Positions 982 to 19,806 of a stretch of 20,015 nucleotides of DNA are shown piece by piece (position 1 is the first letter of the stretch; the number at the start of each line of letters is the position of its first letter). This DNA is from a virus: the IMG/VR virus record IMGVR_UViG_3300042988_001244, positions 1 through 20,015 of that record, one strand, 5' to 3'. Under the pieces are notes generated by a model, which had not been told where the DNA came from, made no database searches, and worked only from the letters and a program-made list of their open reading frames with translations. Both the position numbers and the translations under genes were made by a program.

Positions 982-1015
982 GTTGTGCGTGCTCCAACAG
1001 GATGTTAGATGGGGT

Positions 1016-2335: not shown

Positions 2336-2364
2336 GATGAACTCGGAAGTGAGGGATCTGAACG

Positions 2365-4329: not shown

Positions 4330-4330
4330 G

Positions 4331-5356: not shown

Positions 5357-5382
5357 CGGCGTGCGCGATGCGGTCGTCGTGG

Positions 5383-6771: not shown

Positions 6772-7560
6772 TCACTTGGCCTTCACGGTCGCCGCGTCAG
6801 CCAGATGCTTGTCCAGCAACGCCCGATAGGCGGGCTGGCCATGCGTTTCGATGTACGTGCGACGCTCGTCACTGGTCCACTCAGTCGGTGGCTTCGCGCT
6901 ACCGCCTGCTCCACCAGCCCCGCCGTTACCCGTACCACCGCCTGCTCCACCGCCCGATGCCTTGCTACCCTCGTACCACTCCGGCATCTCGTTCTTGAAA
7001 TCACCCGCGAAGTAGTCGGTGACGCTGGTCGTCTGAATTTCACCGTTGACCTTGCGCACCACCTTACCATCCACCAACTGGAAACCGTTGAGCTTGGCCA
7101 GCGCCACCGCCTGCTGACGGCGCTTCTCCGTGCCGCCTGCACCCATGAACGATCCGCCCAGCACATCGTCCAGTTCGTACTTCGTGAGGCGCTCCCGATC
7201 CGCTACGTACGGCTTCGTCGCCTCTTCGACCGCTGCCTGGATGGCCTTCTGCTTCTCGACTTCCCACTTGTCGAGCAGTTCCTTCACCTTGGCATCCGTC
7301 AGCTGTCCACCGGCCTGTCGCGCCTCGAGTTCGCGCTGTGCGTTGGCCACCGCATCTTCGGCGTCCTTCTTGGCCTTCTCCGCAGCAGTCTTCTCATCGC
7401 GCACCTTGCCCAGCGTGGTTTCGAGCTTACCCACGCTGGTCTTGAGCGCCGCGATTTCGTCCGCATCCGTGTCGAGTACGAAACTACCATCCTCGAGCTT
7501 CAGTGCGTCTTTCTGGCGATCGGCGGGGATTTGGTCGAACGCGGTGAATTTCTTGAACAT
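6772..7560 (-). CDS. Capsid scaffolding protein
   Basis: A 262-residue protein just upstream of the major capsid gene. Residues about 31-120 are alanine, lysine and glutamate rich, with a heptad-like pattern (DEIAALKTSVGKLETTL), so probably a long coiled coil. Residues 203-220 are a glycine-rich linker, and a charged helical C-terminus follows (WTSDERRTYIETHG, then LLDKHLADAATVKAK). This layout, coiled coil and small basic C-terminal helix, is that of phage scaffolds, which direct capsid subunit assembly and then leave or are cut. The start MFKKFTAFDQ at 7560 is preferred over ATG 7590 because it begins the conserved-looking segment; neither has a good ribosome site. Function is inferred from composition and gene order. 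Confidence 0.75.
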   Translation of the reverse strand: MFKKFTAFDQIPADRQKDALKLEDGSFVLDTDADEIAALKTSVGKLETTLGKVRDEKTAAEKAKKDAEDAVANAQRELEARQAGGQLTDAKVKELLDKWEVEKQKAIQAAVEEATKPYVADRERLTKYELDDVLGGSFMGAGGTEKRRQQAVALAKLNGFQLVDGKVVRKVNGEIQTTSVTDYFAGDFKNEMPEWYEGSKASGGGAGGGTGNGGAGGAGGSAKPPTEWTSDERRTYIETHGQPAYRALLDKHLADAATVKAK

Positions 7561-7602
7561 GTCAGTCCGTAGTGAGGGTGGCGTGCGCATCCCGTGCGTA
7601 CA

Positions 7603-7950
7603 TCATACGCTCGGGGTGCCCAACTGGGTAGGACGAGCCCCTGCCACGGTGGGCAGGTCCCGAGGGAACGGAGGCGTAGCGAACGGGCCCGTCTCAAAGA
7701 TCTTGCTCGCTTCCATCGTGAACGATTTCTGACACTTCGGGCAGCGACAACCCGTCCACGTAATCTTCAGTGAACCGGCATGGTGTGGGTCGTTTGACCA
7801 GTGCATGCGCAAGGCGTCGTCCGTGTGCATCTCCACCAGTGTTCCGGCGAGTTGACACATCGGACACGCAAACGCAAGGTTCATCACGAGGCGGTCGTAG
7901 ATGGGGATCGGGTAGCGAAGTTCTTCATCCGCGGTAATCTGTTGCGGCAC
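7603..7950 (-). CDS. Small zinc-ribbon protein
   Basis: A 115-residue protein with two CxxC pairs (C29-P-M-C32 and C70-P-K-C73, with an extra cysteine at 68), which indicates a zinc ribbon. The region between is histidine rich (DDALRMHWSNDPHH). It starts at GTG 7950 with GGAGGG seven bases upstream, two bases after the stop of the head morphogenesis gene. I do not recognise a named family. Small zinc-ribbon proteins occur in the head region of several siphoviruses, without a known role. The tail of about 30 residues is proline rich and probably flexible. Confidence 0.7.
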   Translation of the reverse strand: MPQQITADEELRYPIPIYDRLVMNLAFACPMCQLAGTLVEMHTDDALRMHWSNDPHHAGSLKITWTGCRCPKCQKSFTMEASKIFETGPFATPPFPRDLPTVAGARPTQLGTPSV

Positions 7951-7952
7951 GG

Positions 7953-8900
7953 TTACGCCCTCCGGCGTGGGGCACGGGTTTCATATTCTACGTTACAGCG
8001 GCAGTTCCACTCGCTCGGGTAGAGTAGCCCGTTACTGAACGTGTCGTCCATGGGCCGACGTTCCCCTTCCATCACACGGTGGTCATCGCGTACACGACTG
8101 TCACCCACCGTGCGCCACACCTTCGTCACGTACTCGTCGATCGCTCCGTTGCTAATCGCCGTTTGGATGTTGCTCCATTGGGCGGTGCGATACGCATTCA
8201 GCGTGGCCGTGCGGCTAATCGTTTCAGCATGTAGTGCAATCAACCGCTTCTCGTAAGCGGCGACCATCTTGTCCACCTGTGTAGGTGTCAGGTCCTTGCC
8301 CTGCTTGCGGAGGCGGGCAATGGTCGTGTCGAAGCGCTTATCGCGTCGCGTGTACGTGCGATAGCTGCGTCCCTCCCGCCCCTCGAGCGCTGCGCGAAAG
8401 TTGCGCACCCAGACCGCTTGATTAGGCGCCAGCCCCACCACATCCCGCACGCCTCGCGCAATGTCGACGGGGTTCTTACCGGCTTCCACCCCCGCCATCA
8501 CGTGTTGCAGCACGGTCTCGCGCACACCCTTCTTCGCATCCTTCAGAATCATGTCGTCCAGTTTCTGCAACGCGGTCCGCACCGCAGGATCCAGGGTGTT
8601 GAACACCACGGTCGCCCGTGCAGGCGTGCGCGGCAAATCGTTCGTCAGCCAGTCGAACGCCCTGCCTGTGGTCCGCTGCAACTCGGCGCTCAGCTGCGCA
8701 AACGCACGATCGAGCAACTCGGGCGGCACCAAGTCAAAGAACGCCCCCGCCTTGACGGCGTCGATGAGAAACTCGACGGGGAGTTCTTGCCGTAGAATCT
8801 TCACGGCGCGCAAGTAGGCAGCCCGCACCGCTGGGGACAGGCGGGCCACCCGTGCGTTGACCAGCGCCTCGAGCGCTTGGGCCTTAGTCATCTTCGCCAT
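7953..8900 (-). CDS. Phage head morphogenesis protein (SPP1 gp7 / Mu F-like)
   Basis: A 315-residue protein with the C-terminal signature of this minor capsid family: DSRVRDDH (267-274), then P-M-D and LYPSEWNCRC (293-302), i.e. the 'D-x-x-V-R-x-x-H ... P-x-x-x-x-NCRC' motif. These proteins are carried inside the head, bind the portal or DNA and help DNA entry or exit. The N-terminal part is helical and rich in alanine and arginine. The start at ATG 8900 has GAGGAG at seven bases and overlaps the end of the preceding gene by 17 bases. It follows the portal after two small genes, the usual place. Length is close to SPP1 gp7 (about 300). Confidence 0.88.
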   Translation of the reverse strand: MAKMTKAQALEALVNARVARLSPAVRAAYLRAVKILRQELPVEFLIDAVKAGAFFDLVPPELLDRAFAQLSAELQRTTGRAFDWLTNDLPRTPARATVVFNTLDPAVRTALQKLDDMILKDAKKGVRETVLQHVMAGVEAGKNPVDIARGVRDVVGLAPNQAVWVRNFRAALEGREGRSYRTYTRRDKRFDTTIARLRKQGKDLTPTQVDKMVAAYEKRLIALHAETISRTATLNAYRTAQWSNIQTAISNGAIDEYVTKVWRTVGDSRVRDDHRVMEGERRPMDDTFSNGLLYPSEWNCRCNVEYETRAPRRRA

Positions 8901-9186
8901 ACTGTCGCTCCTCTTTCTCCGTCAGTTCGCCATCCAAGCGGTTCCGCTCTTTAGCCAGTACCGAGCTATACATCACCAGCTGGATGTCGCTGCGCATGAA
9001 ATTGAACAGGTGTCCGTAGAACCCTTCAATCTCCAAGCACGCGGTCGGCTCAGCGGTCTGAAAGAAGTGCTGAAGCTGCTCGTACTTGTTCTTATGAAAC
9101 ACGAACCCGATATCGTGCCCATACAGATACACCGCGACGGTGTCCACATGTCCTGCGCGTGGGACCTGTTCCGGTCTAAGTGTCAC
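8884..9186 (-). CDS. Unknown small protein between portal and head morphogenesis genes
   Basis: A 100-residue protein from GTG 9186 (VTLRPEQV), chosen because GGAGG lies nine bases upstream; a second GTG at 9216 would give 110 residues but has no ribosome site. The middle carries VAVYLYGHDIGFVFHKNKYEQLQHFF, read as two beta strands and an amphipathic helix, then CLEIEGFYGHLFNF and a highly charged C-terminus (EKEERQYGEDD). I do not recognise the family. The layout (short strands, aromatic loops, acidic tail) could be a small adaptor or binding protein. It overlaps the next gene by 17 bases, so it is probably translated with it. Confidence 0.62.
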   Translation of the reverse strand: MTLRPEQVPRAGHVDTVAVYLYGHDIGFVFHKNKYEQLQHFFQTAEPTACLEIEGFYGHLFNFMRSDIQLVMYSSVLAKERNRLDGELTEKEERQYGEDD

Positions 9187-9275
9187 GCCACGTGACCTCC
9201 ACCACGCCGTACACACGATCGATCATGTCTGCTGCTCGCTCATGCGCGTCTCCGTTGCGTCATCGCGTCTGGTGC

Positions 9276-9476
9276 TCATGGCCGTCCCCGCTTGTTCGGC
9301 TTGATGTGAGTACGCTTCCGTTGCTGCTGATCCGCGTGATGGCGCGATGATTCGATCGCAAACGTGAGCATCCAGCCGCCCACCTTGCGGAAGCCTGCCT
9401 GCTCCACGAACAACCGTTCATTCGGCAGTGCCAACCAGTAGCCTACGCCCATCAACCACTCTCCCGCCGCTCGCAT
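9276..9476 (-). CDS. Unknown 66-residue basic protein
   Basis: A short frame with a good AGGAG ribosome site about six bases before ATG 9476, which begins 44 bases after the portal stop. The protein has an aromatic and hydrophobic first half (MRAAGEWLMGVGYWLAL) and a basic C-terminus (QQQRKRTHIKPNKRGRP). No membrane segment is long enough to be clear and no motif is recognised. It fills a gap in an otherwise dense operon. Function is unknown; a nucleic-acid-binding tail is a loose guess. Confidence 0.6.
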   Translation of the reverse strand: MRAAGEWLMGVGYWLALPNERLFVEQAGFRKVGGWMLTFAIESSRHHADQQQRKRTHIKPNKRGRP

Positions 9477-9520
9477 CTATGCTCCTGTGTTGTGGGGGCG
9501 TGCGCCCCACAGTGAAATGA

Positions 9521-11125
9521 TTACGCCGTGCCTTGGTCCTGCGTCCCTGCGTCCGTCCCGCTGGGATCGGTCGGTATGGTATCGAGCCCCTGTTGCAACC
9601 GTGCGGCCTCCTGCTGCCGCTGCGCTTCGAGTTCGGCGTCCCACTCGAGTGCGAGGTCTTCCAGATTGGCGTCCTCGGGGATGCGTCCGCCGTCTTGCAG
9701 GGCTTGCAACACCACCAGCTTCGGGAAACCGCTCTTGACGAGCGTGGCGTACGCCATCATGACGGGTGCCGCCATCTTCGTGCTATCGAAGTCGGTGTTG
9801 ATCTGCACCGTCATGGCCTGCGTCTTGTCCATGCCGTAGTACCACGCCAACCACTCGCCAACCACGTTACACGCATCACTCAGCCCAACCCCGGCAGTCG
9901 CCAGCGTGCTCTTCTGCGCATAGTTCTCGAGTGCCGCTTCGGTCGCCGTGCGATCGACGGTTTTGTTGGGGACCAGGAAGCCCAGCCCCATCACATCCAT
10001 CTGTTCCATCTTTTCGACACAGCCCTTCTCCAGCTGCTCCAGGCCCTTGCCACTCGGACCCACCCACGCCACCGAGCCTTCCTTCTCCAGATGAATCGCC
10101 ACCAGTGGGCCGGTCTTGATCGAACCAGCGACGAGCGTGGTGCTGCCGTCCGCGCTCATCTGGTCTGGCTTCAAATCACCAACGACCACCAACTGCTCAA
10201 TTCCGGCGATCATCCGCCCAAACCGCAACTCTGTCGCATACCGCCAATGCGCGAGGTTGGCGTAGGCGTTGCCCTCGAGCGGAAAGTCTGCGACGAAGGT
10301 GGCGTGCTTGCGTCCAGTGTACGCGACCGCAATGGGCAGCGCCGTCGCAGGATCTCCCAAGCGATTCGTGAACGCCCCGTTGCTGACGCGCACGTACATC
10401 AGCCCACCCTTTCCATTGTCCTGTTCTTCGAGTACTTCCCAGTGTGCCGTCAGCACCCCGTTCTCGTCAGCAGCCATGTAGAGGCGCCGCCACCGCTCCT
10501 TCGTCTCCACCCCGTACGTTCCACTATCCACCATGGTCGGCTCGTGGAACACCACCTGTACCACCGTCGTGACGTTGTTCACCGTCTGCTCGCGCCACGA
10601 CCACACCTGTCCACGCGTGTAGCGCGCGACCATAGGGCGGAGGTTGTACTGCGCCTCGTTGGCCAGTGTGATCCGAATGCGGTTACCTTCCGCATCGACC
10701 GGCGCTGGCGGGTGATCCACCAACAGCACGCCCAAGCCTTCCGGAATCGCGTGGGCGGCAAAGTGTGCCAGGAACACATCCCCTCGCGTGCCGCGTCCAT
10801 CCAGGTTGTTCCACAGCGCTTCCATCACCGCGTCGTTCCCGTTGTACGTCACCTGCGGGGGCTTGGCGAACAGCAGCCCCGTCGCCGCGAGCACTGTACG
10901 CTTCAGTCCTTCGAATACGGGTTCGCAGGTCCGGCGCACCTTGTACACATCCGGGTCTTCGTCGGTCCACTTCTTGATGTACTCGGTGCTGTGCTCCCAC
11001 ATACACTCGGGGCCCTCGAGCAGCCGATGTACGAGCGTGAGGGTGGTACTGGCCTCGCAATACTCGGGGCGCTGAAAGGTGGGTTGATTGGCGTCTTTGG
11101 TGCTGCGCTTGGTAGGGATCGTCAT
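9521..11125 (-). CDS. Portal protein, DUF4055 type
   Basis: A 534-residue portal protein; twelve copies form the ring through which DNA is packed. The opening part (YIKKWTDEDPDVYKVRR at about 49-65, followed by LKRTVLAATGLLFAKPPQV) is typical of the DUF4055 family, in which the conserved 'Y-K-x-R ... G-x-x-F-x-K-P-P' runs before the wing domain. The middle has ANLAHWRYATELRFGRM, equivalent to the portal stem region, and the C-terminal half is helical (alanine and glutamine rich tail). The gene overlaps terL by ATGA (11122-11125). Length is usual for portals of about 450-550 residues. No truncation is seen. Confidence 0.85.
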   Translation of the reverse strand: MTIPTKRSTKDANQPTFQRPEYCEASTTLTLVHRLLEGPECMWEHSTEYIKKWTDEDPDVYKVRRTCEPVFEGLKRTVLAATGLLFAKPPQVTYNGNDAVMEALWNNLDGRGTRGDVFLAHFAAHAIPEGLGVLLVDHPPAPVDAEGNRIRITLANEAQYNLRPMVARYTRGQVWSWREQTVNNVTTVVQVVFHEPTMVDSGTYGVETKERWRRLYMAADENGVLTAHWEVLEEQDNGKGGLMYVRVSNGAFTNRLGDPATALPIAVAYTGRKHATFVADFPLEGNAYANLAHWRYATELRFGRMIAGIEQLVVVGDLKPDQMSADGSTTLVAGSIKTGPLVAIHLEKEGSVAWVGPSGKGLEQLEKGCVEKMEQMDVMGLGFLVPNKTVDRTATEAALENYAQKSTLATAGVGLSDACNVVGEWLAWYYGMDKTQAMTVQINTDFDSTKMAAPVMMAYATLVKSGFPKLVVLQALQDGGRIPEDANLEDLALEWDAELEAQRQQEAARLQQGLDTIPTDPSGTDAGTQDQGTA

Positions 11126-12522
11126 GAGGAGAACGGCTTGAGGGTTTGAAACGACGTTCCCGTCTGTACGACCGGAAACTTGGCGACCACGTAGTAGCCC
11201 AACGCGTCACTGATGTGGGTACGCTTGGGATCCCGCTTCTTGTCAATCTCACCGCTGCCACCGGCTACCGTCTGCACCCCCTCCAAGTCAATGACCACAT
11301 GGGACGCGTGCTTGGGATCCACGAACAACGCGAGGTCACCGTTGCCCTTGCGCAACCGCTGGTTCACAGCATTGACACGCGCCCGCTCGCTGGGGTTAGC
11401 GCTGGGTACATGGTACGACACCCGCTCGCCAAACCCCCTGACGTCATGACCGGCATCGCCGTAGCGTAGTATCCGCTTCACAATGTCCCAGTCACTGCCC
11501 GTCGTCTTTGCCGTACCCCGACTGCCGCCGGTCGCATCGCCGTACACCTGTACAATCCCCTGATGCACGCCGACCCAGTCCTTGCACAACTTGCGACAGA
11601 CAATTTCGGTGTTGCTGAAGTCGTCCACCCACACTTCCCCAATGACGCACGTGACGGTTCGGCCCAGCGTCTTCAGGTGCAGTTCCTGGCACACCACCGC
11701 CACACCGGGACTCACGTTGAAGTCGAAGCAGAAGATCAGCGGTTGGCGAGGGTCGTACAGTTGGCGACACGCCAGTTTGTGTCCATCGCCGAAGTTGTAA
11801 TACGCCCGACCGAGGAAACTGATGAAGCTGGCCTCGTACTCCTGCGCAAAAATCATCGGGTCCAGATCGCGCTTCGCGGCCGCAATTTCCTTCGCCGGTA
11901 GAATGTCGCTACTGAACCACGTATAGGCGCCCCACTCGCTGTCGGCGCCCATGGTCATCATGTCCGCCACGGCGCGCTGATAGGTTTCGTAATAGTGATT
12001 GCGCCCCTCTGGCACCCCAGTCAGGTCGCACCACCCGTTCCGGTCCGCCAACGCGGGACGAACGTGCGCACCCCACGCATGCGCTTTCATGTTGGCATAT
12101 TCGTCCAGGATCCCCCCATCCCACGGGCTACCCTCGATGCGCTCAGGCTTATCCATACCCAACACCTGCACTTCCACATCGCCCAGCACGTACAGGATGA
12201 GCTCACTTTCGCTGGGCTTGCGCCACATATAGCCCGCGAACATTCGCTTCAGGTCGTCCCAGAAGATGCGCTTCGCTTGGTCTCGCGTCGGGGCAGCGGC
12301 GAAGTAGCGCGCCGTATCCCGGTGCGTCACCCCCAATCGCCGCAAGGCCCGCCGTCGCAACCGGCGCTTCGCCCGTTCGGTCTTGCCGCTTCGCCGTCCA
12401 GCAGGCACCACGTTGAAGCGATGCGGGCTGCTGGCGTACTGTACCTGCTTGGCGTGGTAGCGCAGCCCGTACAAGCGGGGGTTCTCGGCCGTGACGCTGG
12501 CTAAGGTGATGCCATACTCCAT
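11122..12522 (-). CDS. terL: Terminase large subunit
   Basis: A 466-residue packaging motor with ATPase and nuclease halves. The Walker A motif is at residues 40-49 (PAGRRSGKTE) and Walker B at 136-141 (GGILDE). The nuclease part shows acidic residues D267 (FDFN), D329 (YGDATG) and D439 (HISDALGYY), as expected of the RNase H-like fold. A stretch of arginines (RAKRRLRRRALRR) follows Walker A. The gene starts at ATG 12522, sharing one base with the preceding stop (TGATG), and overlaps the portal by ATGA. In the finished cell it cuts and pumps concatemeric DNA into the prohead at the portal. Everything expected is present. Confidence 0.93.
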   Translation of the reverse strand: MEYGITLASVTAENPRLYGLRYHAKQVQYASSPHRFNVVPAGRRSGKTERAKRRLRRRALRRLGVTHRDTARYFAAAPTRDQAKRIFWDDLKRMFAGYMWRKPSESELILYVLGDVEVQVLGMDKPERIEGSPWDGGILDEYANMKAHAWGAHVRPALADRNGWCDLTGVPEGRNHYYETYQRAVADMMTMGADSEWGAYTWFSSDILPAKEIAAAKRDLDPMIFAQEYEASFISFLGRAYYNFGDGHKLACRQLYDPRQPLIFCFDFNVSPGVAVVCQELHLKTLGRTVTCVIGEVWVDDFSNTEIVCRKLCKDWVGVHQGIVQVYGDATGGSRGTAKTTGSDWDIVKRILRYGDAGHDVRGFGERVSYHVPSANPSERARVNAVNQRLRKGNGDLALFVDPKHASHVVIDLEGVQTVAGGSGEIDKKRDPKRTHISDALGYYVVAKFPVVQTGTSFQTLKPFSS

Positions 12523-12791
12523 CAGGGGCTGGCCTCCTCTGAGTAAGGTTCTGAGGATGCCGCTGAGGTCTCTGCTGTGATCATCGATACAGTCTCAGAC
12601 CCTGTCTCTGAGGACGGCAGAGCCACCCTCTGAGGCATCGAGGCAGTCCCAGAGGCACCATCAGACCCACCCTCTGAGGGTCGGCTGATAAGGTTCGCTC
12701 CTCTGATGTGTGGGAGATGACTGGTGGGAACGTTGCGGTACACCACCATCGATTCCACCACGTAGTCTTCAATACAGAAGCGCTTACCCAT
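12522..12791 (-). CDS. Unknown 89-residue protein between TerS and TerL, serine/glutamate-rich tail
   Basis: A short frame from ATG 12791 (MGKRFCIEDYVVESMVVYRN), with a purine-rich GAGGGAGAG site four bases upstream. It overlaps terS by 8 bases and terL by one base, so it is embedded in the packaging module. The first 40 residues are mixed and probably folded; the last 50 are serine, glutamate, threonine and alanine rich (PSEGGSDG, PSSETGSET, SAASSEPYSEEASP) and look disordered. The DNA coding for this tail carries repeated TCTGAG on the plus strand (see the repeat entry), which argues that part of its sequence is shaped by a DNA role. No family is recognised. Confidence 0.7.
   Translation of the reverse strand: MGKRFCIEDYVVESMVVYRNVPTSHLPHIRGANLISRPSEGGSDGASGTASMPQRVALPSSETGSETVSMITAETSAASSEPYSEEASP
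12538..12679. repeat. Cluster of TCTGAG(G) repeats inside the terS-terL gap gene
   Basis: TCTGAG occurs at 12538-12543, 12550-12556 (TCTGAGG), 12607-12613, 12629-12635 and 12673-12679, with CTGAGG at 12563-12568 and one inverted copy CTCAGA at 12594-12599. Two copies share a 13-base block CCACCCTCTGAGG (12623-12635 and 12667-12679). The CCTCTGAGG core is nearly self-complementary. Copies fall in more than one reading frame of the host gene: most are read as Ser-Glu, one as Pro-Gln-Arg. Position next to terS and terL suggests a terminase recognition or cos/pac site. Confidence 0.6.
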
Positions 12792-13431
12792 CGTTCTCTC
12801 CCTCGGTGCCGTCGTCAGTAGGGGCAGGGCCCAGCCCTTCTTTCGCGTCCTGTGCGTCCAGCTGTTGCCGAATGGCGTGGGCCAACACCTGCGGATCCAC
12901 CTTTTCCGCCTGTTCACGGGTGAGGCCCAAGTGTTCACGCGCCAGCTTGAGCGCTTCGGTCTTAGACCACAGCCGGACCTCTACCTCGCGAATGACCTGC
13001 CGTTGGCCGTTGTTCATCTGCACCGTGCGGATCCGGTGCTTCACACTGCTCACGGCGCGCCATGCCGCATCGGGGGCACCGGGGCGCAACGTGAGGCGAC
13101 CCGACGTTTTCACCCGAAAGTCACGGACGTCACTGCGACACAGCACGGTCAACTCCCGCAGAATTTCGTCGGCGTCGATCTGCAGGCGTTCTTTCCGTGC
13201 ATTCAGCGCATCACGGAGTTTTTCCTGGACCGAAATCTTCCGCAAGAGCTCGGTACCTTTCGCAGTCGCGGTATTCGCAGAATAACCGACGGCTTTCGCG
13301 GCCCGCGTTCCGTTGAAATCCTTCATATACTCGAGCACGAACAGGTCCTCACGCACATCGGCCTTCTCCGTGCGCGCCCCCTTCGGCATCGCCTTCGTCT
13401 TCGCCACCTTCTTCGGTGTGGACTTCTTCAT
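12784..13431 (-). CDS. terS: Terminase small subunit
   Basis: A 215-residue DNA-recognition subunit. The helix-turn-helix segment FVLEYMKDFNGTRAAKAVGY (31-50) followed by SANTATAKGTELLRK is the standard opening of the Terminase_2-type small subunits ('f...yl.d.N.t.AA..aGYs...a...G..Ll...'). The second part is a helical oligomerisation region, and the tail (APTDDGTEGENDG) is acidic. The start is MKKSTPKKVAKTK at 13431, with a lysine-rich N-terminus, a GGAG five bases upstream, and an ATGA overlap with the preceding gene; the upstream extension of this frame is not supported. It binds the packaging site and hands DNA to TerL, encoded after one small gene. Confidence 0.88.
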   Translation of the reverse strand: MKKSTPKKVAKTKAMPKGARTEKADVREDLFVLEYMKDFNGTRAAKAVGYSANTATAKGTELLRKISVQEKLRDALNARKERLQIDADEILRELTVLCRSDVRDFRVKTSGRLTLRPGAPDAAWRAVSSVKHRIRTVQMNNGQRQVIREVEVRLWSKTEALKLAREHLGLTREQAEKVDPQVLAHAIRQQLDAQDAKEGLGPAPTDDGTEGENDG

Positions 13432-13811
13432 CGCGTCTCCGGACGTCGCGTGAGATGATACTGGTGGCAAAACGGACAGGGATACGCCACCTGACGCACC
13501 CCAAACACGCGACTCATCCGCACGGCCAAGCGCTCCGCATAGTCCGGCGTGCGATACGCTTTCTTCTGCGTACACGCCCGATCCCGCGTCACACTGCCAC
13601 TCGCCACCGCTTGCACCAAGGCATCCACCACATGGGCCACATCGGAGGGAGAAGCAGTAGGAGCGGGTCCGACATGAGGCGCCAGCGCCAACACCGATCG
13701 AAAGTGGGCACGGACCCGTTCGTTGCGGTCGGCCACCTCGGCAATCGGGGGCGGAAACGTCAACGCCTCCCTCACGGGGTCGTACGTGTAGGCGTGGCGG
13801 CGTCGGCCCAT
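13428..13811 (-). CDS. Small protein with C-terminal zinc knuckle
   Basis: A 127-residue protein. The last 30 residues contain C112-P-F-C115-x3-H119 with aromatic residues around (YPCPFCHQYHLTRR), the compact 'Y-x-C-x-x-C-x-x-x-H-L-T' motif seen in many small phage proteins and thought to bind zinc. The preceding basic stretch (QKKAYRTPDYAERLA) is also typical of that group. The start ATG 13811 (MGRRRHAYTY) has a GGAGGGG close upstream; the longer frame is not supported. It overlaps the winged-helix gene by 40 bases and terS by ATGA. The role is unknown; DNA or RNA binding is likely from the zinc knuckle. Confidence 0.72.
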   Translation of the reverse strand: MGRRRHAYTYDPVREALTFPPPIAEVADRNERVRAHFRSVLALAPHVGPAPTASPSDVAHVVDALVQAVASGSVTRDRACTQKKAYRTPDYAERLAVRMSRVFGVRQVAYPCPFCHQYHLTRRPETR

Positions 13812-14128
13812 AGCCCCTCCGTGTGCAGGGGACAGAGCGTAAACTGGCGGGGATCGTTTTGCGTGGGTCGCGGATGCTCCACGATATAGCCCAGCGCCGT
13901 CAACGTGGACCAGTGCTTCCACACATCACGCTCTTTACACCCTACCTGCTCAGCCACGTACCACGCGGGCAGCCCCAGTGGGGTCGTTTCGCTGTACCGC
14001 GTGTCCATGAACTTCAGCACACGCAGCAACGGATGATCGGGGGTGCGGCGATCGTTCACGAAGAGGGCGATCCGCCCACTCAGCGTCGTCGGATGAATGA
14101 TCGCGCGCATCGGTGTTGGTGCTGCCAT
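13772..14128 (-). CDS. Winged-helix DNA-binding protein, first gene of late operon
   Basis: A 118-residue protein from ATG 14128 (MAAPTPMRAI), with GGAGG about seven bases upstream; the longer frame from 14197 adds a region without support. Residues about 50-98 fit a winged helix: PAWYVAEQVGCKERDVWKHW is the helix-turn-helix, followed by TALGYIVEHPR as wing strand. It lies next to the divergent control region and leads the packaging and structural operon, so it could be a regulator of the divergent promoters or of the late genes, or a terminase-associated DNA-binding protein. Which one cannot be told from the sequence. It is helical and moderately basic. Confidence 0.72.
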   Translation of the reverse strand: MAAPTPMRAIIHPTTLSGRIALFVNDRRTPDHPLLRVLKFMDTRYSETTPLGLPAWYVAEQVGCKERDVWKHWSTLTALGYIVEHPRPTQNDPRQFTLCPLHTEGLWADAATPTRTTP

Positions 14129-14208
14129 TCCACGCCTCCACAGGGTCAAGCGCTGACGTCCGATGGGCCCACTATGGCTCAGCGGAAGACCCAACACAAC
14201 ACACGAAA

Positions 14209-14496
14209 CGGGGCGGGTAGGTACAGCATTCGGACCATTTTAGGAATCCTTCCCAATGTACCACTTTTCCGCGGTCTTTTCAGCGGTTCACATAGACCGC
14301 CTGCAAGTGGTACATTGGGATACTTTTACTTTTTCTAAAATACCCTTACCAACGACTATTTCTCCTAGAGATCCGGTACAGCATATACCCGCCCCGATTA
14401 TTCACCGCATGACATATGCACCCCCAAGGGCTACCCCGTGCCGCCGGACCGCTGCACCCCCACACACCCCCACCACACCCAAAATATACCCGCCCC
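14209..14496. repeat. Iteron-like repeats of the control region
   Basis: ATATACCCGCCCC occurs at 14383-14395 and 14484-14496 as a direct repeat, 101 bases apart. Its core TACCCGCCCCG also appears inverted at 14209-14219 (CGGGGCGGGTA). GGTACAGCAT is repeated directly at 14220-14229 and 14375-14384, on either side of the hairpin. These could be binding sites for a replication initiator or a repressor. Confidence 0.55.
14251..14320. repeat. 16-bp perfect inverted repeat forming a long hairpin
   Basis: TCCCAATGTACCACTT at 14251-14266 is the exact reverse complement of 14305-14320. Inside it, GCGGTCT (14271-14277) pairs with AGACCGC (14294-14300), leaving a 16-base loop. It lies between divergent operons, so it is not a terminator for either. 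An operator pair, cruciform or replication-origin hairpin fits better. Confidence 0.75.
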
Positions 14497-14685: not shown

Positions 14686-14937
14686 ATGTCACAGTCCATC
14701 CCCGATTGCGAAGTGTTCCAGCGTCCCCGCAAAGCCCGACCCGTCCGTATCAAGGCCACCCGCATTGAAACCGCCAAGCTGTGCGACGCCCTGGAACACC
14801 TGACCGCGATGGTCACGGACAAGCGCCTGAACAGCAGCACCGACGTTGACGCGTTGGCCACGGTGGTCACCTTCATGCACGCCTTGCGGGGCGTACTGCC
14901 ACCGACGCTCCTCACGCCCACGGGACCCAGTCGGTGA
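14686..14937 (+). CDS. Unknown 83-residue protein, first gene of rightward operon
   Basis: The start ATG 14686 (MSQSIPDCEVFQRPRKARPV) has a GGAG about ten bases upstream; the longer frame to the left runs through the C-run block and is not supported. The protein has a basic N-terminal third, an amphipathic helix (ETAKLCDALEHLTAMV), and a second helix (DVDALATVVTFMHALRG). It overlaps the next gene by ATGA. It could be a small two-helix DNA-binding or regulatory protein. No family is recognised. Being the first gene behind the control region, it is probably expressed early. Confidence 0.65.
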   Translation: MSQSIPDCEVFQRPRKARPVRIKATRIETAKLCDALEHLTAMVTDKRLNSSTDVDALATVVTFMHALRGVLPPTLLTPTGPSR

Positions 14938-15149
14938 AAACGCCGGGACAGCGGTTGTATGAACACCTGTCCCCACCGACGATTGCGATGGTGCCCTACC
15001 ACAATCGTCAGTTCGCCACATCCCGCGACATTGTGTTAGTACCGAACGACAAACACGTCCCGTGGGAGTTTCTGTACGAACACCGTCGCCAGTCGTACGA
15101 AGAACAGGCGAAAACCCACTGGTTCACCACTAGCCCCGCAACCCGATGA
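14934..15149 (+). CDS. Unknown 71-residue protein
   Basis: A short frame coupled by ATGA overlaps to both neighbours (14934-14937 and 15146-15149), which supports it as a real gene. The sequence (MKTPGQRLYEHLSPPTIAMV, then VPWEFLYEHRRQSYEEQAKTHW) is hydrophilic with a charged helical C-terminal half and no membrane segment. No motif is recognised. Its place immediately before the thymidylate synthase-like gene hints at a nucleotide or DNA role, without direct evidence. Confidence 0.65.
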   Translation: MKTPGQRLYEHLSPPTIAMVPYHNRQFATSRDIVLVPNDKHVPWEFLYEHRRQSYEEQAKTHWFTTSPATR

Positions 15150-16360
15150 CACGCATTCCCACTCCGCTCACCATTGGCGCTCGCAACGTCAACGACGCGT
15201 TCCAGCTGGCGCACCTGCACTATCTCCAGTTCCAGCAGGGGCAGACGCCGTGGGCGTTTCACCGCAACGCAGAACATCGCAACATCGCCGCGCTGGGTCC
15301 CGTGGTACAGGCAGTGCATCCGGTGTTGACCGTGTACGATCGCCCCGATGAGTGCGTGCTCACGCACCCCACGCGCAACGCCAACCCGTTCTTCCACCTG
15401 CTCGAAGCCCTCTGGATGCTTGACGGAGGGAATGACGTCGCGCTGCCTGCCTACATGGTGCCGCGGATGCGTACCTACAGCGACGACGGGGCGGTGTTCT
15501 GGGGCGCCTATGGGCACCGCTGGCGCGAGTGGTTTCAGCATGACCAGATTCTGACGGCTCTCGATGAACTCGAGCGCGACCCGCTGTCGCGACGGGTGAT
15601 CATTGGTATGTGGGATCCCAGCGTGGATCCGTTGCAGGGCCCAACCGCGAAAGACCTGCCCTGTAATCTGATGATGAAGGTGGAGATTGATCCGGTGTAT
15701 CATCGGGTCAACGGTACGGTGTACAACCGCAGCAACGATGTCATCTGGGGATGCTACGGCGCCAACGCCGTACAGTTCAGCATCCTGCTTCAGTTCATTG
15801 CCGGAGCCTTGCGCCGACAGGTGGGCTGGTTGGCGCAGTTCAGTGCGAACTGGCATGTGTACGAAGGTACCAGTAACCTGTTCGGGCGGATCAGCGAGCA
15901 CGAGCAGCCGTACGGAAACGCACACCCTCAGTATATCACCCCGCTACCTCTGTTCTCGGGCATGACGGGTGAGAGCCGAGGAGCGCGCTTTCTGGCCGAA
16001 GTCAACCGCCTACTCGAGTTCGTGCGGGTGCAGCACATTCCCTTCGTGGAAGCGGCGGTCCCGGGGTATGAAGCCGTACTGCCCAGCGCGACGCACTACA
16101 CGCGTACATTCGGCACCGCACCGGCCGACGTTCCCTTTGTGGCGCTAGTCGCCGCCCCTATGGCCGATGCGCTGTGTGGGGTGCGTCTGTTCCTCGAGCA
16201 TGGTGATGCGACGCACCTGTACAGCGCCTATGCGATCGTCCGCAACGCGCTGCAGAGCGTTCCGCACAACGATTGGCTCACGGCGGGTGCGCGTTGGCTG
16301 GAGCGCCTTGGTCAGCGTCGCGGAGAAAACCTGTACGGGCATTTTGACCAGCAGGCGTGA
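15146..16360 (+). CDS. Thymidylate synthase-like enzyme (ThyA fold; dUMP methylase or hydroxymethylase)
   Basis: A 404-residue ThyA-type protein. It shows the catalytic cysteine C173 in LPCN, a YGHRWR segment (122-127), the R195-S-N-D198 phosphate/dUMP-binding motif, WGCYGANAVQFS with asparagine N207 in the place of E. coli Asn177, and NWHVYEG with H237 and Y239, equivalent to His207 and Tyr209. In ThyA the asparagine selects dUMP; in dCMP hydroxymethylases it is aspartate. So this acts on dUMP and makes either dTMP or hydroxymethyl-dUMP; sequence alone does not decide. The WGxYGAN form is common in phages with modified thymines. The C-terminal 100 residues are extra compared with E. coli ThyA (264). 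It starts by ATGA overlap. Near neighbours include base-modification-type genes, favouring 5-hydroxymethyl-dUMP synthesis. Confidence 0.85.
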   Translation: MTRIPTPLTIGARNVNDAFQLAHLHYLQFQQGQTPWAFHRNAEHRNIAALGPVVQAVHPVLTVYDRPDECVLTHPTRNANPFFHLLEALWMLDGGNDVALPAYMVPRMRTYSDDGAVFWGAYGHRWREWFQHDQILTALDELERDPLSRRVIIGMWDPSVDPLQGPTAKDLPCNLMMKVEIDPVYHRVNGTVYNRSNDVIWGCYGANAVQFSILLQFIAGALRRQVGWLAQFSANWHVYEGTSNLFGRISEHEQPYGNAHPQYITPLPLFSGMTGESRGARFLAEVNRLLEFVRVQHIPFVEAAVPGYEAVLPSATHYTRTFGTAPADVPFVALVAAPMADALCGVRLFLEHGDATHLYSAYAIVRNALQSVPHNDWLTAGARWLERLGQRRGENLYGHFDQQA

Positions 16361-16388
16361 CGACTCTTCCCTATCACCAACTCCTCTG

Positions 16389-16877
16389 ATGACTCCGAAC
16401 CGCCTGACCCCCGAAACGGTGTTGCACCTGCTGGGCACCGTGTTGGCCACCCAACCCATCAGCGATGCCCAGCAGCACGCCGTCATCGCCCTCATGTACG
16501 AGCGCCTCATGCCGCCCGCACCCCCCATTGACCCGTTGGCCAGTGTACGGTCCTGGTGCGTCCGTACAGAAGCGCCCGAGGGGGTCATCAAGGACCTTGA
16601 GTGGTCCGCCACGCTCCTATCGCGGGTGCCGCTCAACCCTAGCACCCCCACACCGCCCGCCCCCGACAGCGGACGCGTGAGCGGGGCGCCCATGCCTGCC
16701 GCCCTGTTTCGACATGTGGATGGGTTGTGGTACGCCACCCGCGATGTCGCCATGGGGTCAACCGGCCTGACCACCGCCGAAGGACGAGGTACGGCACCAC
16801 TCGAAGCAATCATCGCGTACGTGGACGCGTGGCACCGCCTGCAAGACATGGCGCGTCGCACGGTGGAGATGACCTGA
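16389..16877 (+). CDS. Unknown 162-residue phage protein
   Basis: The start ATG 16389 (MTPNRLTPETVLHLL) lies 28 bases after the thymidylate synthase-like stop and has no ribosome site that I can see; the longer frame to the left overlaps the upstream gene and is rejected. Residues 1-80 are helical, then comes a proline-rich linker (NPSTPTPPAPDSG) and a C-terminal domain with ALFRHVDGLWYATRDV and AIIAYVDAWHRLQDM. The gene shares one base with the next start (TGATG). No catalytic motif or family is recognised; a two-domain layout is clear. No P-loop is present. Confidence 0.68.
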   Translation: MTPNRLTPETVLHLLGTVLATQPISDAQQHAVIALMYERLMPPAPPIDPLASVRSWCVRTEAPEGVIKDLEWSATLLSRVPLNPSTPTPPAPDSGRVSGAPMPAALFRHVDGLWYATRDVAMGSTGLTTAEGRGTAPLEAIIAYVDAWHRLQDMARRTVEMT

Positions 16878-17071
16878 TGACGCATGTGTGGCTCTTGCGA
16901 GCGTTGGTCGTGTGGGGCTGTCTGTGGTTCGTGGCACACCGTGCGGTGAACAACGTCAACGCTCGCCCGTGGCGCCAGCAAGGCGCCTTCACGCATAACG
17001 TAGAGATCGTATGTATGCTGGGCTTCCTTCTCACCTTGATCGGAGTGGTGTTCGCGTGGCCCGTTATATGA
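16877..17071 (+). CDS. Small membrane protein, two predicted TM helices
   Basis: A 64-residue protein starting at ATG 16877 with a TGATG overlap. Hydrophobic helices lie at about residues 4-22 (WLLRALVVWGCLWFVAH) and 43-64 (a segment ending LLTLIGVVFAWPVI), joined by a basic loop containing NARPWRQQG. It looks like an inner-membrane hairpin. Function is unknown. A holin-like role is possible by size, but no lysis genes are near. It is followed by another membrane protein and lies in the nucleotide-modification gene group. Confidence 0.68.
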   Translation: MTHVWLLRALVVWGCLWFVAHRAVNNVNARPWRQQGAFTHNVEIVCMLGFLLTLIGVVFAWPVI

Positions 17072-17349
17072 AGCGCCTACCGTGGTACCGCTATTCGCTG
17101 TATGCGGCCATGGACTGGATCGGCGACGCGTGGTGGCGGGTGATGCTGGTCACCGTGGCGGCGGTCATACTGATAGCATGGGCAGCGGTGCAGTTGGATG
17201 CGTGGGATCGCCGTGCGTGTATGCAGCGGGGCGGCCACACTGTCAAAGAGCAGATCTGGGTTCCGCAGTACACTATGATCGGCAATCAGATGGTTCACAC
17301 GGGTACCACCCGCGAAATCGTTTCCCATTGTGAGGAGCGTAGCAAATGA
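17068..17349 (+). CDS. Small membrane protein with one TM helix
   Basis: A 93-residue protein with a basic, aromatic start (MKRLPWYRYSLYAAMDW), one TM helix at about residues 22-43 (VMLVTVAAVILIAWAAV), and a soluble tail of about 50 residues with cysteines at 51 and 88. It starts with an ATGA overlap at 17068 and ends with an ATGA overlap into the next gene at 17346. The two membrane proteins and the membrane-anchored MazG-like protein downstream are unusual together in an early operon. No family is recognised. Confidence 0.68.
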   Translation: MKRLPWYRYSLYAAMDWIGDAWWRVMLVTVAAVILIAWAAVQLDAWDRRACMQRGGHTVKEQIWVPQYTMIGNQMVHTGTTREIVSHCEERSK

Positions 17350-18050
17350 GCGCCAACATCCCAGGCCTCAATATCGAGAGCCCTTACTACGACAAAGTAC
17401 GTGCCCTTCGCCCAGAGGCGCGCTTTGCTCGCTACGTGCGGGAGCGCTACAAGGTACGGTCGCGCCGGTTGGCCGGAGAGCACCCGGACAAGTGGACCGA
17501 CGACATGATTCTCCGCTCATTCAAGTTCACCAACGTCAAGCGTGACTGGGACTATACGAGCACATGGTTGAAGAAGCGCTGGTATGCGCCCAACTACGGC
17601 CATGAGCTTATCGGTCTTATGTGCGCTGTGGCGCGCTTCGTGTGTCTGGTACCGTCACTGCAAGCCATCGGTATTCCAGGCGCAGCCCAGCGCAAAGTGA
17701 ACACGCGAGCAAAGCTCTATCTGGAAAAGGTGGAGAAGACCATGCTTGCACGGCAGGACGCCGGTCACAAGGTGTTCACCAGCGCCTATGTAATCGGCGG
17801 CGTGGCAGCGGGTCACAAGAAGGCGTCGTGGGTGGTGTGGGAATATCTGTGGCCCGCGTTTGAGGCGGGGCTGCTCACGCGCAAGTGGGAGACGTTGGAT
17901 GAAGCGCACGAAGCACTCAACCAGTTGAACGGGTGGGGTCACTTCATGACGCAGGAAGTGGTCCTGGACTTCGTGCATACGTGGTACGGAAGCGGTGTCA
18001 CAGACCGTGAGTCGTACGCCTATGCGGGCCCGGCGCCATTCGTGGTCTGA
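17346..18050 (+). CDS. DNA base hypermodification protein, N-terminal frame (5-hmdU DNA kinase helical domain / aGPT-PPlase-like)
   Basis: A 234-residue zero-frame product. Residues 27-80 match the helical family found in phages with hypermodified thymine: FARYVRERYKVRSRR, then WTDDMILRSFKFTNVKRDWD (50-69), with DxILxxFxFTNVxRxxD as key pattern. Further family elements are VFTSAYVIGG (143-152) and WGHFMTQEVVLDF (197-209). The zero frame stops eight codons after the conserved AGP (227-229). Moving to the -1 frame there restores AGPGAIRGLNRVFD and continues to 18316, so the real product is probably about 323 residues, which fits the family. It starts by ATGA overlap at 17346. Such proteins act on hydroxymethyl-dU in DNA, either with a P-loop kinase or as pyrophosphorylase-type transferases; no kinase is in this window. 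The family call is from memory of its motifs. Confidence 0.72.
   Translation: MSANIPGLNIESPYYDKVRALRPEARFARYVRERYKVRSRRLAGEHPDKWTDDMILRSFKFTNVKRDWDYTSTWLKKRWYAPNYGHELIGLMCAVARFVCLVPSLQAIGIPGAAQRKVNTRAKLYLEKVEKTMLARQDAGHKVFTSAYVIGGVAAGHKKASWVVWEYLWPAFEAGLLTRKWETLDEAHEALNQLNGWGHFMTQEVVLDFVHTWYGSGVTDRESYAYAGPAPFVV
18026..18032 (+). other. GGGCCCG heptamer at the frame change of the hypermodification gene
   Basis: In the zero frame the codons are GCG-GGC-CCG, so GGGCCCG has the X-XXY-YYZ form of -1 slippery sites. A -1 slip after CCG continues GGC-GCC-ATT-CGT-GGT-CTG, giving G-A-I-R-G-L and the rest of the expected protein. A single G missing from a GGG run would give the same picture. Confidence 0.5.
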
Positions 18051-18055
18051 ATCGG

Positions 18056-18316
18056 GTGTTCGATCTGCCGTACGACGGGAGCATGCCACAGAGCAAGGCG
18101 CGTGACGCCATGCGGGTGCTCCACACGTACTGCACCGATGGACAGTTGCGGCGGCTACTACCGCCCGAGCTTCACCTGACGCTACACGACATCGAGTTCA
18201 ACCTCTGTGAATTCGACAAGTACGAACGCGTCCTGTTCGGCGATGGCACACCCAAGCAGAAGTTTCACGGCCCTGCGGAAGCGCAGTGGCTCGACCTCAC
18301 AACACCCATCCGATAA
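18056..18316 (+). CDS. DNA base hypermodification protein, C-terminal frame
   Basis: This frame carries the C-terminal part of the preceding gene. Read from the frame change at about 18032 it continues GAIRGLNRVFDLPYD, then helices and the segment DIEFNLCEFDKYERVLFGDG, the 'x-LCEFDKYER-x-x-x-G-x-G-x-PK' motif that ends proteins of the family, and PKQKF. As a stand-alone gene it would begin at GTG 18056 or ATG 18083, neither with a usable ribosome site, and would lack the rest of the domain. It is therefore best read as the -1 frame part of one protein of about 323 residues, made by programmed slip, or as the result of a recent 1-base deletion or sequence error. It ends at TAA 18316, six bases before the next start. 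Confidence 0.65.
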   Translation: MFDLPYDGSMPQSKARDAMRVLHTYCTDGQLRRLLPPELHLTLHDIEFNLCEFDKYERVLFGDGTPKQKFHGPAEAQWLDLTTPIR

Positions 18317-18322
18317 TCTCCC

Positions 18323-18871
18323 ATGTACACAGAAGCCATCAAGACCGCCATTGCTCTCGCCTCTGGGTTCACCACGCGCAGCGGGCAGGTGGAACTCAAC
18401 AACGCAGAAGTCTGTCTGCTCGCCGATGCTGTGCTGCAACTGAGCAGCCTGTTGCAGAAGCCGCTGGATCCTGCGGTAGCGGAGGGAGTGGTTGCCCGTA
18501 CTCTGCCGCCTGAACTGGTCATGGGCGATCACGCCCCCTGCGCGCATCTGCGTTATCTGGATGCAGTCTTGGAAAGCGACGCGGAACAGACGATAACAGC
18601 TGATATCAACTATCGCGGTAGCTGGAAGCGTCGCGGTGGTACCGGGGCGTTCCATATGCTGGCGCGCAAGTGGGATCGCCTCGAACCACGGGTAGAAGCA
18701 CATGGTTTCGATGTGTTCGACGCCATCAAGCACGATCGCCGGCGAGAAGGTGTCATCGACGATATCCGAGATCTTCGGAGATACTTGGCACTCGTCGAAG
18801 CGGAAGCGGTGCGGCTCGGGCTGGTACCGGTCCAGGTCCTCGGTAAGGACTCGGTACATGCCGCCGACTGA
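18323..18871 (+). CDS. DUF1599-like (nucleotide-modification-associated) protein
   Basis: A 182-residue protein. Residues 97-121 carry YRGSWKRRGGTGAF and MLARKWDRLE, the pattern 'Y-G-x-SW-x-x-RGG-x-GAF ... RKWDR-x-E' of a phage family linked to DUF1599 / nucleotide-modification-associated domain 1. The following helix pair (GVIDDIRDLRRYLALVEAEA) fits its acidic 'D-x-x-x-DL-x-x-YA' end. The function of the family is not established, but it is often found next to base-modification enzymes. The N-terminal 90 residues are helical and unrecognised. It starts at ATG 18323 without a good ribosome site, shortly after the upstream stop. The link to DUF1599 is a pattern match, not certain. Confidence 0.6.
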   Translation: MYTEAIKTAIALASGFTTRSGQVELNNAEVCLLADAVLQLSSLLQKPLDPAVAEGVVARTLPPELVMGDHAPCAHLRYLDAVLESDAEQTITADINYRGSWKRRGGTGAFHMLARKWDRLEPRVEAHGFDVFDAIKHDRRREGVIDDIRDLRRYLALVEAEAVRLGLVPVQVLGKDSVHAAD

Positions 18872-19211
18872 TCCACGTGTGCAGAACGAGCGCCTGCACG
18901 ACCTGTACATCCAACTGACGACGGGGCGTGGTACACCGTACGCAGAGGTCTACAGTAGCACCGACAGCGTACTGAATCTGGACTGGTTGCGCCAAGCTGT
19001 AACCGCCCCGAAATCAGCGCTGCACCCCGGTAGTGATACGGTGCGACCGATCCTTCGCCTTTGGGGCAGATGTCGAGAACTGGCGACGACCATGGTGTAT
19101 CGGCATTTTCAGACGCCCGTTGAGCGTGAAGCGTGGGAAACACAGCACTATCGTAACCGCCCCGGTAACGTGAATCGTGCCTTTTTCAAAGGAGTAGCCC
19201 GTGCCCGTTGA
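18858..19211 (+). CDS. Unknown 117-residue protein
   Basis: The start ATG 18858 (MPPTDPRVQNERLHDLYI) has AAGGA about eight bases upstream and overlaps the previous gene by 14 bases; the longer frame upstream is rejected. It overlaps the next gene by 11 bases. The sequence is hydrophilic, with a central helix (DTVRPILRLWGRCRELATTM) and a basic C-terminus (RNRPGNVNRAFFKGVARAR). No family is recognised. Its location between two nucleotide-related genes suggests a partner role, without proof. Confidence 0.62.
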   Translation: MPPTDPRVQNERLHDLYIQLTTGRGTPYAEVYSSTDSVLNLDWLRQAVTAPKSALHPGSDTVRPILRLWGRCRELATTMVYRHFQTPVEREAWETQHYRNRPGNVNRAFFKGVARAR

Positions 19212-19806
19212 TACCAGCGCCGTGATTCTGACCCCCGAATGGTTCAGTCAGTACCCCACGGTCACATGGATTCTGATTGCGTCGCTTTGGGTATTCACCT
19301 TCAGCGTTATCATGGACGTCGTGACAACAGTACGCAGCACGAAGACATACCGTGCCATGACCGCGTCGCACCTGACGCCCCATGTACCGTCTAACCTCAA
19401 GGACTTTACCGCCGCGTTCTGTCCGGATCAATTTCGTTCGACGCCAGGATTCCCCTCGGCGAAAATCGTGCGCAACCGGCTCCGACTGATCGATGAAGAA
19501 GTAGGAGAACTTCATCGTGCGGTCTCGTACGGCGATCTCGTTGCCGTAGCCGATGCTCTTGGCGATATCCAGTACGTCGTGGAAGGGGCCTTCTTGGCGT
19601 TCGGTATCGACAGCGACGCGATTCATCGTGCGATTCACGACAGCAACATGCGCAAACGGCAACCGAACGGCAGTGTGCAACGTGACGCAGGTGGAAAGGT
19701 GATCAAGCCGGACGGATGGACACCGCCTGATCTCGCCGATGTACTGAACCATCAGCGTAAGTTGCGTCTCCGTGTCGCACGTACGACCGTTAAGGTGGTT
19801 AGCTAA
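19201..19806 (+). CDS. Membrane-anchored MazG-like NTP pyrophosphohydrolase
   Basis: A 201-residue protein starting at GTG 19201 with an excellent AAAGGAG six bases upstream. Residues 20-43 form one hydrophobic helix (WILIASLWVFTFSVIMDVV), which would anchor it in the inner membrane. Residues 90-150 form the all-alpha NTP pyrophosphohydrolase core: EEVGE (99-103) is the metal-binding EExxE, and D118-A-L-G-D122 is the matching acidic pair. The C-terminal GGKVIKPDGWTPPD (164-177) is typical of phage MazG-like enzymes. These cleave (d)NTPs to NMP and pyrophosphate; in modified-DNA phages they can remove the normal nucleotide. The substrate is unknown. The membrane helix is unusual for the family; an internal ATG at 19354 would remove it but has no ribosome site. 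Confidence 0.78.
   Translation: MPVDTSAVILTPEWFSQYPTVTWILIASLWVFTFSVIMDVVTTVRSTKTYRAMTASHLTPHVPSNLKDFTAAFCPDQFRSTPGFPSAKIVRNRLRLIDEEVGELHRAVSYGDLVAVADALGDIQYVVEGAFLAFGIDSDAIHRAIHDSNMRKRQPNGSVQRDAGGKVIKPDGWTPPDLADVLNHQRKLRLRVARTTVKVVS

Follow-up and report, generated by a model that had tools for sequence, protein, structure and literature searches.

What does a viral gene cluster do when it appears to hold the first enzymes of a thymine hypermodification pathway and none of those that would complete it? The question is raised by the rightward operon of the IMG/VR virus record IMGVR_UViG_3300042988_001244; the complete record, 20,015 bases long, is the window analysed here, and sequence past position 20,015 was unreadable. 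The genes support an operon for thymine modification based on 5-hydroxymethyldeoxyuridine (5hmdU), a variant of the known system. The operon probably makes 5hmdU in the viral DNA and decorates it, with the decoration in relatives more often made by a glycosyltransferase. An earlier note on this DNA had proposed such a variant operon, and all the genes it named were present where it had placed them. The features on which the argument depends are as follows.

15146 to 16360, plus strand: ThyA-type hydroxymethylase of deoxyuridine monophosphate (dUMP), 404 amino acids, predicted maker of 5-hydroxymethyl-dUMP (PF00303, phrog_5131, N207)
17346 to 18050, plus strand: N-terminal 234 amino acids, of about 320, of aGPT-PPlase1 / HMUDK_hel (PF18723, phrog_2396)
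18026 to 18032, plus strand: GGGCCCG, site of the -1 change in the conserved frame of the aGPT-PPlase1 gene
18056 to 18316, plus strand: C-terminal piece of aGPT-PPlase1, 86 amino acids from a GTG, in the -1 frame, which is open from 18011
18323 to 18871, plus strand: protein of 182 amino acids with a YGxSWKKRGG...RKWDR...DDIRDLRRYL domain as its C-terminal half, possibly a distant relative of DUF1599 (Nmad1)
19201 to 19806, plus strand: nucleotide pyrophosphohydrolase of the MazG/PRA-PH type with an N-terminal hydrophobic segment (PF01503, phrog_671, DR2231)

The product of the 15146 gene scored above the curated Pfam cut-off for PF00303 and matched the thymidylate synthase family phrog_5131 (3e-77, residues 51-388). 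Enzymes of Pseudomonas Yuavirus and Bordetella Vojvodinavirus, several of them annotated as deoxyuridylate hydroxymethyltransferase, share about 36% identity with it along 94-95% of its length. In these enzymes asparagine at the selectivity position marks the dUMP type and aspartate the deoxycytidine monophosphate (dCMP) type. The dUMP selectivity that had been read from N207 agrees with our alignment: Asn207 and the catalytic residues are all retained, and N207, C173, R149-R150, D198, H237 and Y239 were invariant among 12 aligned homologues. The position does discriminate, since Asp takes its place (PYDV, not GANAV) in the two phages whose terminase is closest. These phages encode an Asp-type (dCMP) hydroxymethylase (L085, 15522-16310; L086, 31269-32165) and lack aGPT-PPlase1; therefore, the modified base appears to differ among related virions. 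In a comparison of the ThyA group profile with solved structures, the CMP 5-hydroxymethylases 5b6d and 5jnh came first (1e-36), with thymidylate synthases behind. By its sequence, then, the enzyme is predicted to be the ThyA-fold dUMP hydroxymethylase of an M6-type system. A single-sequence scan of IMG/VR gave no close ThyA relatives.

The enzymes of the second stage, conversely, were not found in the window. Both the HMUDK kinase (PF18748) and the amino acid:DNA transferase ADDT (PF18724) are absent from the 20,015-base fragment, and the only genuine Walker A motif among the open reading frames (ORFs) of the window is that of TerL, in line with the absence of a P-loop kinase remarked on earlier. 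The further assumption, that a P-loop kinase is a regular member of the set and has only dropped out or been cut off at the edge, found no support in relatives, most of which lack the HMUDK kinase and many of which carry a glycosyltransferase.

We surveyed the relatives in two samples drawn by profile scans of IMG/VR. The first was obtained with aGPT-PPlase1 (191 relatives, 80 fetched, phage references added). Since its loci had been chosen through aGPT-PPlase1, the second was obtained with the 18323-type protein (495 relatives, 80 fetched, with near-copies merged at a ThyA identity of at least 90% to give 55 loci); the two overlap in a few contigs, e.g. the records of L125 and L138. Among the non-redundant loci of the first sample, 38 had the HMUDK kinase and 28 did not. 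Glycosyltransferases of the two main families occurred in 14 of the 28 kinase-less loci compared to 0 of the 38 kinase loci (p = 5e-7). Within the fetched stretches of the second sample, ThyA was present in 79 of 80 loci and aGPT-PPlase1 in 66 of 80. This constant gene company, together with the family matches, bears out the proposal of a hydroxymethyl-based thymine operon. The 55 non-redundant loci contained a glycosyltransferase in 31 cases, the kinase in 12, both in 0 and neither in 12 (p = 6e-6); for the 48 loci having ThyA as well as aGPT-PPlase1 the numbers were 27 with a glycosyltransferase and 12 with the kinase. All these genes were on the ThyA strand, at a median distance to ThyA within 1.3 kilobases (kb). 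Both p-values assume independent loci, which is true only in part, and relatedness inflates the significance. Given the glycosyltransferase and kinase counts in both samples, we consider the missing kinase to be the commoner state. Along whole records, PF18748 was absent from 30 of 34, some of them 54-80 kb long, that were picked mainly as lacking a local kinase.

The transferases of the kinase-less loci, lying mostly between aGPT-PPlase1 and ThyA, were of the TAGT, GT-B (PF00534), GT61, sulfotransferase-like and radical SAM/SPASM kinds. TAGT is PF20691 and also phrog_842, beta-glucosyl-HMC-alpha-glucosyltransferase; its Pfam model was matched in 8 of 65 records, 0 of which had a detected kinase, and GT-B was confirmed by Pfam in L102 and L124. 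We rejected the idea that the kinase-less loci are a single clade because at least 14 changes of the kinase label are needed on the aGPT-PPlase1 tree, a count inflated by fragmentary contigs. The three best matches of the window aGPT-PPlase1 in the first sample were all kinase-less loci with TAGT. Moreover, aGPT-PPlase1, ThyA and an 18323-type protein, all three present in the window, are the core of the kinase-less glycosyltransferase branch as defined in this analysis. Between 14,200 and 20,015 there is no TAGT or GT-B gene, and the cluster runs off the record.

Several clusters of relatives had features of their own. In L090 a homing-type endonuclease of the HNH/NUMOD3 kind (9353-9968) directly precedes aGPT-PPlase1 and neighbours a further, short copy of the aGPT-PPlase1 start (model positions 3-35), and the radical SAM protein of one kinase-less cluster (L146, 11955-14552) is apparently interrupted by an intein with Hint/intein splicing domains. 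In two more kinase-less clusters, sulfotransferase-like and PIG-L deacetylase-like genes near aGPT-PPlase1 (L093, 2384-3019; L161, 8923-9507), both below the Pfam cut-off, hint at further tailoring chemistries.

We also considered the minus-strand ORF 4331-5356 as the missing tailoring enzyme and rejected it, keeping it as a lead, because of its lack of a family match, its poor model and a relative whose phage has no ThyA-type gene. No match was found in Pfam, PHROG or the PDB sequences. The model (predicted local distance difference test score, pLDDT, 39) gave only partial GT-B matches, with E about 3e-3, in the C-terminal half. The ORF sits between capsid and head-tail genes. Its single relative, at 28% identity across 155 residues, is an unannotated ORF beside the terminase of MW202713; that phage has no ThyA-type gene, and a single-sequence scan of IMG/VR gave no close relatives.

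In the record the aGPT-PPlase1 gene is split. ORF 17346-18050, preceded by a GAGGAG ribosome-binding-like sequence, matched phrog_2396 as well as model positions 6-191 of 281 of PF18723 (E 4e-20; 72.7 bits vs a cut-off of 25) and retained 26 of 35 conserved columns. PF18723 (HMUDK_hel) is the family of M6 gp55, called aGPT-PPlase1 in the annotation of related phages. The earlier note had proposed to drop its reading should searches place this gene outside the hypermodification family; we ran that search, and the gene falls inside. The group had thus been named correctly, while the ORF ends after the first 75% of the family; the remainder is the overlooked ORF 18056-18316 in another frame. There we found PF18723 positions 249-276 (0.0012, below the cut-off), phrog_2396 positions 284-320 and the motif DIExNLCEFDKYERV, and the -1 frame read from 18011 matched the aGPT-PPlase1 family profile at 6e-22. 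The conserved AGP is in frame 0. Past it the -1 frame reads GAIRGLNR, comparable to GPGAIRGLNR of M6; in that frame the continuation is GAIRGLNRVFDL and, further on, DIEFNLCEFDKYERV, like M6. The periodicity of G+C at third codon positions changes phase near 18000-18035, coinciding with the frame change. Still, all 65 other family members compared had one unbroken frame. In the window the PF18723 domain does not lie in a single reading frame: family membership of the sequence holds, whereas an intact protein cannot be read from the record.

An error or a recent mutation in this one record is the more likely origin of the frame change. Neither a single-sequence scan of IMG/VR nor a search with an exact 24-mer from the gene found close aGPT-PPlase1 relatives. 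Programmed -1 ribosomal frameshifting at GGGCCCG, giving a short and a full-length aGPT-PPlase1, seems improbable. The heptamer is in the slippery X XXY YYZ register exactly at the change of the conserved frame, and the family motif is restored in the -1 product. However, the other 65 members are single-frame, no stimulatory structure above background follows the heptamer, the case comes from one record only, and a single-base error or mutation accounts for it equally well. The break could also be read as the beginning decay of aGPT-PPlase1 in a virus with plain, SP8-like 5hmdU DNA whose tailoring enzymes were lost. Besides the frame change, the window's lack of a tailoring enzyme fits this account, as does the terminal branch of the window aGPT-PPlase1 in the tree (3.15 compared to a median of 0.33). 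Conversely, conserved residues are kept in both halves, in 26 of 35 columns before the shift and in nearly all after it, and any loss would therefore be very recent or not real; DIExNLCEFDKYERV would not survive long relaxed selection. We regard plain 5hmdU DNA as distinctly unlikely.

As to the role of aGPT-PPlase1, its occurrence in both branches argues against a function confined to the kinase step. We modelled the protein of L090, the nearest kinase-less relative, from an alignment of 61 sequences (the fetched IMG/VR loci and the window) and obtained a model with pLDDT 94.5. VIA-align placed PUGT first, that is PaMx11 gp46, the 5-phosphomethyldeoxyuridine (5-PmdU) glycinyltransferase (8z2n), over 213 residues; its Z of 12.2 exceeds that of unrelated glycosylases by only about 2 units, and a value near 12 is suggestive for helical folds without amounting to proof. 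Archaeal OGG and other helix-hairpin-helix DNA glycosylases followed. With Foldseek alone the same model had no significant hit (best E 0.5). The predicted fold of aGPT-PPlase1 is thus like that of PUGT, from which its sequence differs with only 11% identity, and a DNA-base-handling fold is likely on this model.

The C-terminal half of the 18323 protein has its family's YGxSWKKRGGxGAFMMLARKWDRxE...DDIRDLRRYLLLVEAE pattern. Pam3_54, encoded within an M6-type cluster, shares 43% identity with it across 53% of the query. The likeness to DUF1599 claimed earlier is at most a weak, distant profile similarity and does not reach the Pfam cut-off. Pfam DUF1599 (PF07659) matched neither the 18323 protein nor 12 of the 14 aligned family members; two members (by sequence those of L158 and L159, at the same position) did match, and hhalign of the 18323 family with DUF1599 gave a weak probability of 17% (E 0.0014, one comparison). 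An Nmad1-like identity is a reasonable lead only.

The description of the 19201 protein as MazG-like and membrane-anchored is backed by a PF01503 match above the cut-off (2e-13; 51 bits vs 21.3, Pfam), which places it in the MazG/PRA-PH group, and by a hydrophobic segment near residue 24 (Kyte-Doolittle 2.09). It also matched phrog_671 (1e-28), and it has relatives in MW202657, L144 and Pam3. The closest protein in PDB is Deinococcus DR2231, aligned by phmmer with residues 88-183 (1e-13 to 7e-13); the phage protein differs from it by its N-terminal hydrophobic segment. A MazG-like enzyme of Deinococcus radiodurans was reported to cleave dUTP among other deoxynucleoside triphosphates (dNTPs) (PMC5122711).

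From families and residues the following pathway can be proposed. The MazG/DR2231-like enzyme would cleave dNTPs such as dUTP to monophosphates, feeding dUMP and perhaps limiting dTTP. The ThyA-type enzyme would convert dUMP to 5-hydroxymethyl-dUMP, to be phosphorylated and polymerised, and thymine would in part be converted to 5-hydroxymethyluracil. With its predicted fold of the PUGT or OGG1-type DNA glycosylase kind, aGPT-PPlase1 may act on 5hmdU in the DNA duplex or present it. A tailoring transferase encoded outside the fragment would then, judging from relatives, attach a group to the hydroxymethyl oxygen; in those relatives the tailoring enzyme is a glycosyltransferase oftener than the 5hmdU DNA kinase and ADDT of M6, and the two were never seen together. 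The modification would likely protect the DNA from host nucleases.

For this virus the glycosyl-5hmdU branch appears likelier than the amino-acid branch of M6. By the composition of its relatives, tailoring would be by a glycosyltransferase with a probability of a little over one half and by kinase and ADDT with about one fifth, the rest going to other enzymes or none. Several points weigh against the pathway proposed above. No recognised glycosyltransferase or kinase is in the window, and the GT-B identity of ORF 4331-5356 is unproven. The gene order here is ThyA, three genes, aGPT-PPlase1 and 18323, while in relatives it is aGPT-PPlase1, the tailoring gene, ThyA and the 18323-type gene. The lead of PUGT over glycosylases is small, as said above. 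With its frame broken in the record and by far the longest branch in its tree, aGPT-PPlase1 could be failing or repurposed. In addition, the loci scoring best with the window ThyA mostly contain the kinase. This last point suits an ordinary M6-type system, in which the PF18748 kinase and PF18724 transferase lie beyond base 20,015 and thymine receives an amino-acid-derived group. So do Pam3, where the 18323 relative is inside a complete M6-type cluster, and the 12 of 48 non-redundant loci in which the kinase accompanies the same three genes. Conversely, the kinase usually adjoins aGPT-PPlase1, next to which at least 2 kb were sequenced on each side without one, and the best matches of the window aGPT-PPlase1 are kinase-less; we consider an M6-type system rather unlikely here. 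That the ThyA-like enzyme is a divergent thymidylate synthase, and the cluster one of ordinary nucleotide metabolism, is highly improbable. Thymidylate synthases too have the N207 residue, and PF00303 does not separate the two activities; yet the enzyme sits full-length in the Yuavirus group annotated as hydroxymethylases, its group profile is nearest to CMP 5-hydroxymethylases among solved structures, and PF18723 and the 18323-type partner occur with modification genes.

Tentatively, and with somewhat less than even confidence, we propose that the window belongs to a widely distributed and seemingly uncharacterised branch of viral thymine modification, with a glycosyltransferase in place of both the 5hmdU DNA kinase and the amino acid transferase. 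Its product, a phage equivalent of base J, would be glycosylated 5hmdU made on a core that both branches share: ThyA, aGPT-PPlase1 and often an 18323-type protein. If so, one core (dUMP hydroxymethylase, aGPT-PPlase1, 18323-type protein) would serve two mutually exclusive chemistries, kinase with amino acid or glycosyltransferase, and aGPT-PPlase1 would move from the kinase step of its name to a common role in handling 5hmdU. Sugar-bearing thymine would be predicted in many uncultivated phages, which bears on restriction resistance, DNA sequencing and enzyme discovery.

The remaining features of the right part of the window are listed below.

14251 to 14320, no strand: 16-bp perfect inverted repeat, a possible control site, in the intergenic stretch from which structural and modification genes diverge
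14686 to 14937, plus strand: small ORF, likely the first of the transcription unit; it overlaps ORF 14934-15149, which overlaps ThyA
16389 to 16877, plus strand: protein of 162 amino acids without a Pfam or PHROG match
16877 to 17071, plus strand: protein of 64 amino acids with hydrophobic segments (Kyte-Doolittle maximum 2.52), overlapping its neighbours by a few bases
17068 to 17349, plus strand: protein of 93 amino acids with one hydrophobic segment (Kyte-Doolittle maximum 2.48)
18858 to 19211, plus strand: protein of 117 amino acids without a significant Pfam or PHROG match

A siphovirus-like structural module, with tail tube, major capsid protein, Mu F-like head protein, portal and terminase subunits, occupies positions 1-14,200 on the minus strand. 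The terminase has its nearest counterpart among annotated phages at 54% identity. The rightward genes run from near 14,686 off the right end, mostly with overlaps or short gaps. The two small proteins at 16877-17071 and 17068-17349, described earlier as membrane proteins, do have strongly hydrophobic segments (maximum about 2.5). The 16877 protein had no significant Pfam or PHROG family, and the 17068 protein no homologue in Pfam, PHROG or the related loci. For the 16389 and 18858 proteins no homologue was seen in the fetched related loci, and ORF 14686-14937 had no match in Pfam or PHROG. The genes at 16389, 16877, 17068 and 18858 all lack homologues. The arms of the inverted repeat are TCCCAATGTACCACTT and AAGTGGTACATTGGGA; its DNA fold has z -6.9, no second copy exists in the window, and it is a candidate operator, promoter or origin/cos element. 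Scans for tRNA genes and with Rfam returned nothing. As for restriction-site avoidance as a sign of modification, T-containing palindromes had no clear shared pattern in these 20 kb. CGCG (observed/expected 0.67) and CTAG (0.32) were depleted relative to the Markov expectation over 1-20015.

Among known systems, phage M6 is the natural reference. Its DNA contains 5-(2-aminoethyl)deoxyuridine (5-NedU), made through 5hmdU, and for the bases of M6, ViI and phiW-14 the route is thought to run through 5hmdU, to which a 5hmdU DNA kinase adds phosphate ahead of further modification (PMC6449724); phosphorylation alone already increases restriction resistance (PMC7653180). In the cultured phages M6, SN1, CN1 and Pam3, this ThyA and this aGPT-PPlase1 are likewise clustered together. 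M6 and other Yuavirus phages share with the window homologous ThyA (gp58) and aGPT-PPlase1 (gp55) genes clustered on one strand. M6 has in addition the HMUDK kinase gp54, ADDT gp51, a pyridoxal phosphate (PLP) enzyme, a radical SAM protein and Nmad5, none of which is in the window, whereas the window differs from M6 by its MazG-like, small membrane-type and 18323-type proteins, another gene order and the frame-split aGPT-PPlase1. The Pseudanabaena cyanophage Pam3 likewise has ThyA, aGPT-PPlase1, the 18323 relative Pam3_54 and a MazG relative; its cluster differs by an aGPT-PPlase2, a kinase-type NTPase and Nmad5 of its own. The hypermodified uracil of SP-15, whose gene cluster is a different one, is known to bear glucosyl groups (PMC5977210). 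The uncultivated kinase-less IMG/VR loci with TAGT or GT-B (L090, L091, L125, L102, L174, L183 and others) share ThyA, aGPT-PPlase1 and the 18323-type protein with the window and hold the best matches of its aGPT-PPlase1 and 18323 proteins, differing from it by the glycosyltransferase that they carry between aGPT-PPlase1 and ThyA.

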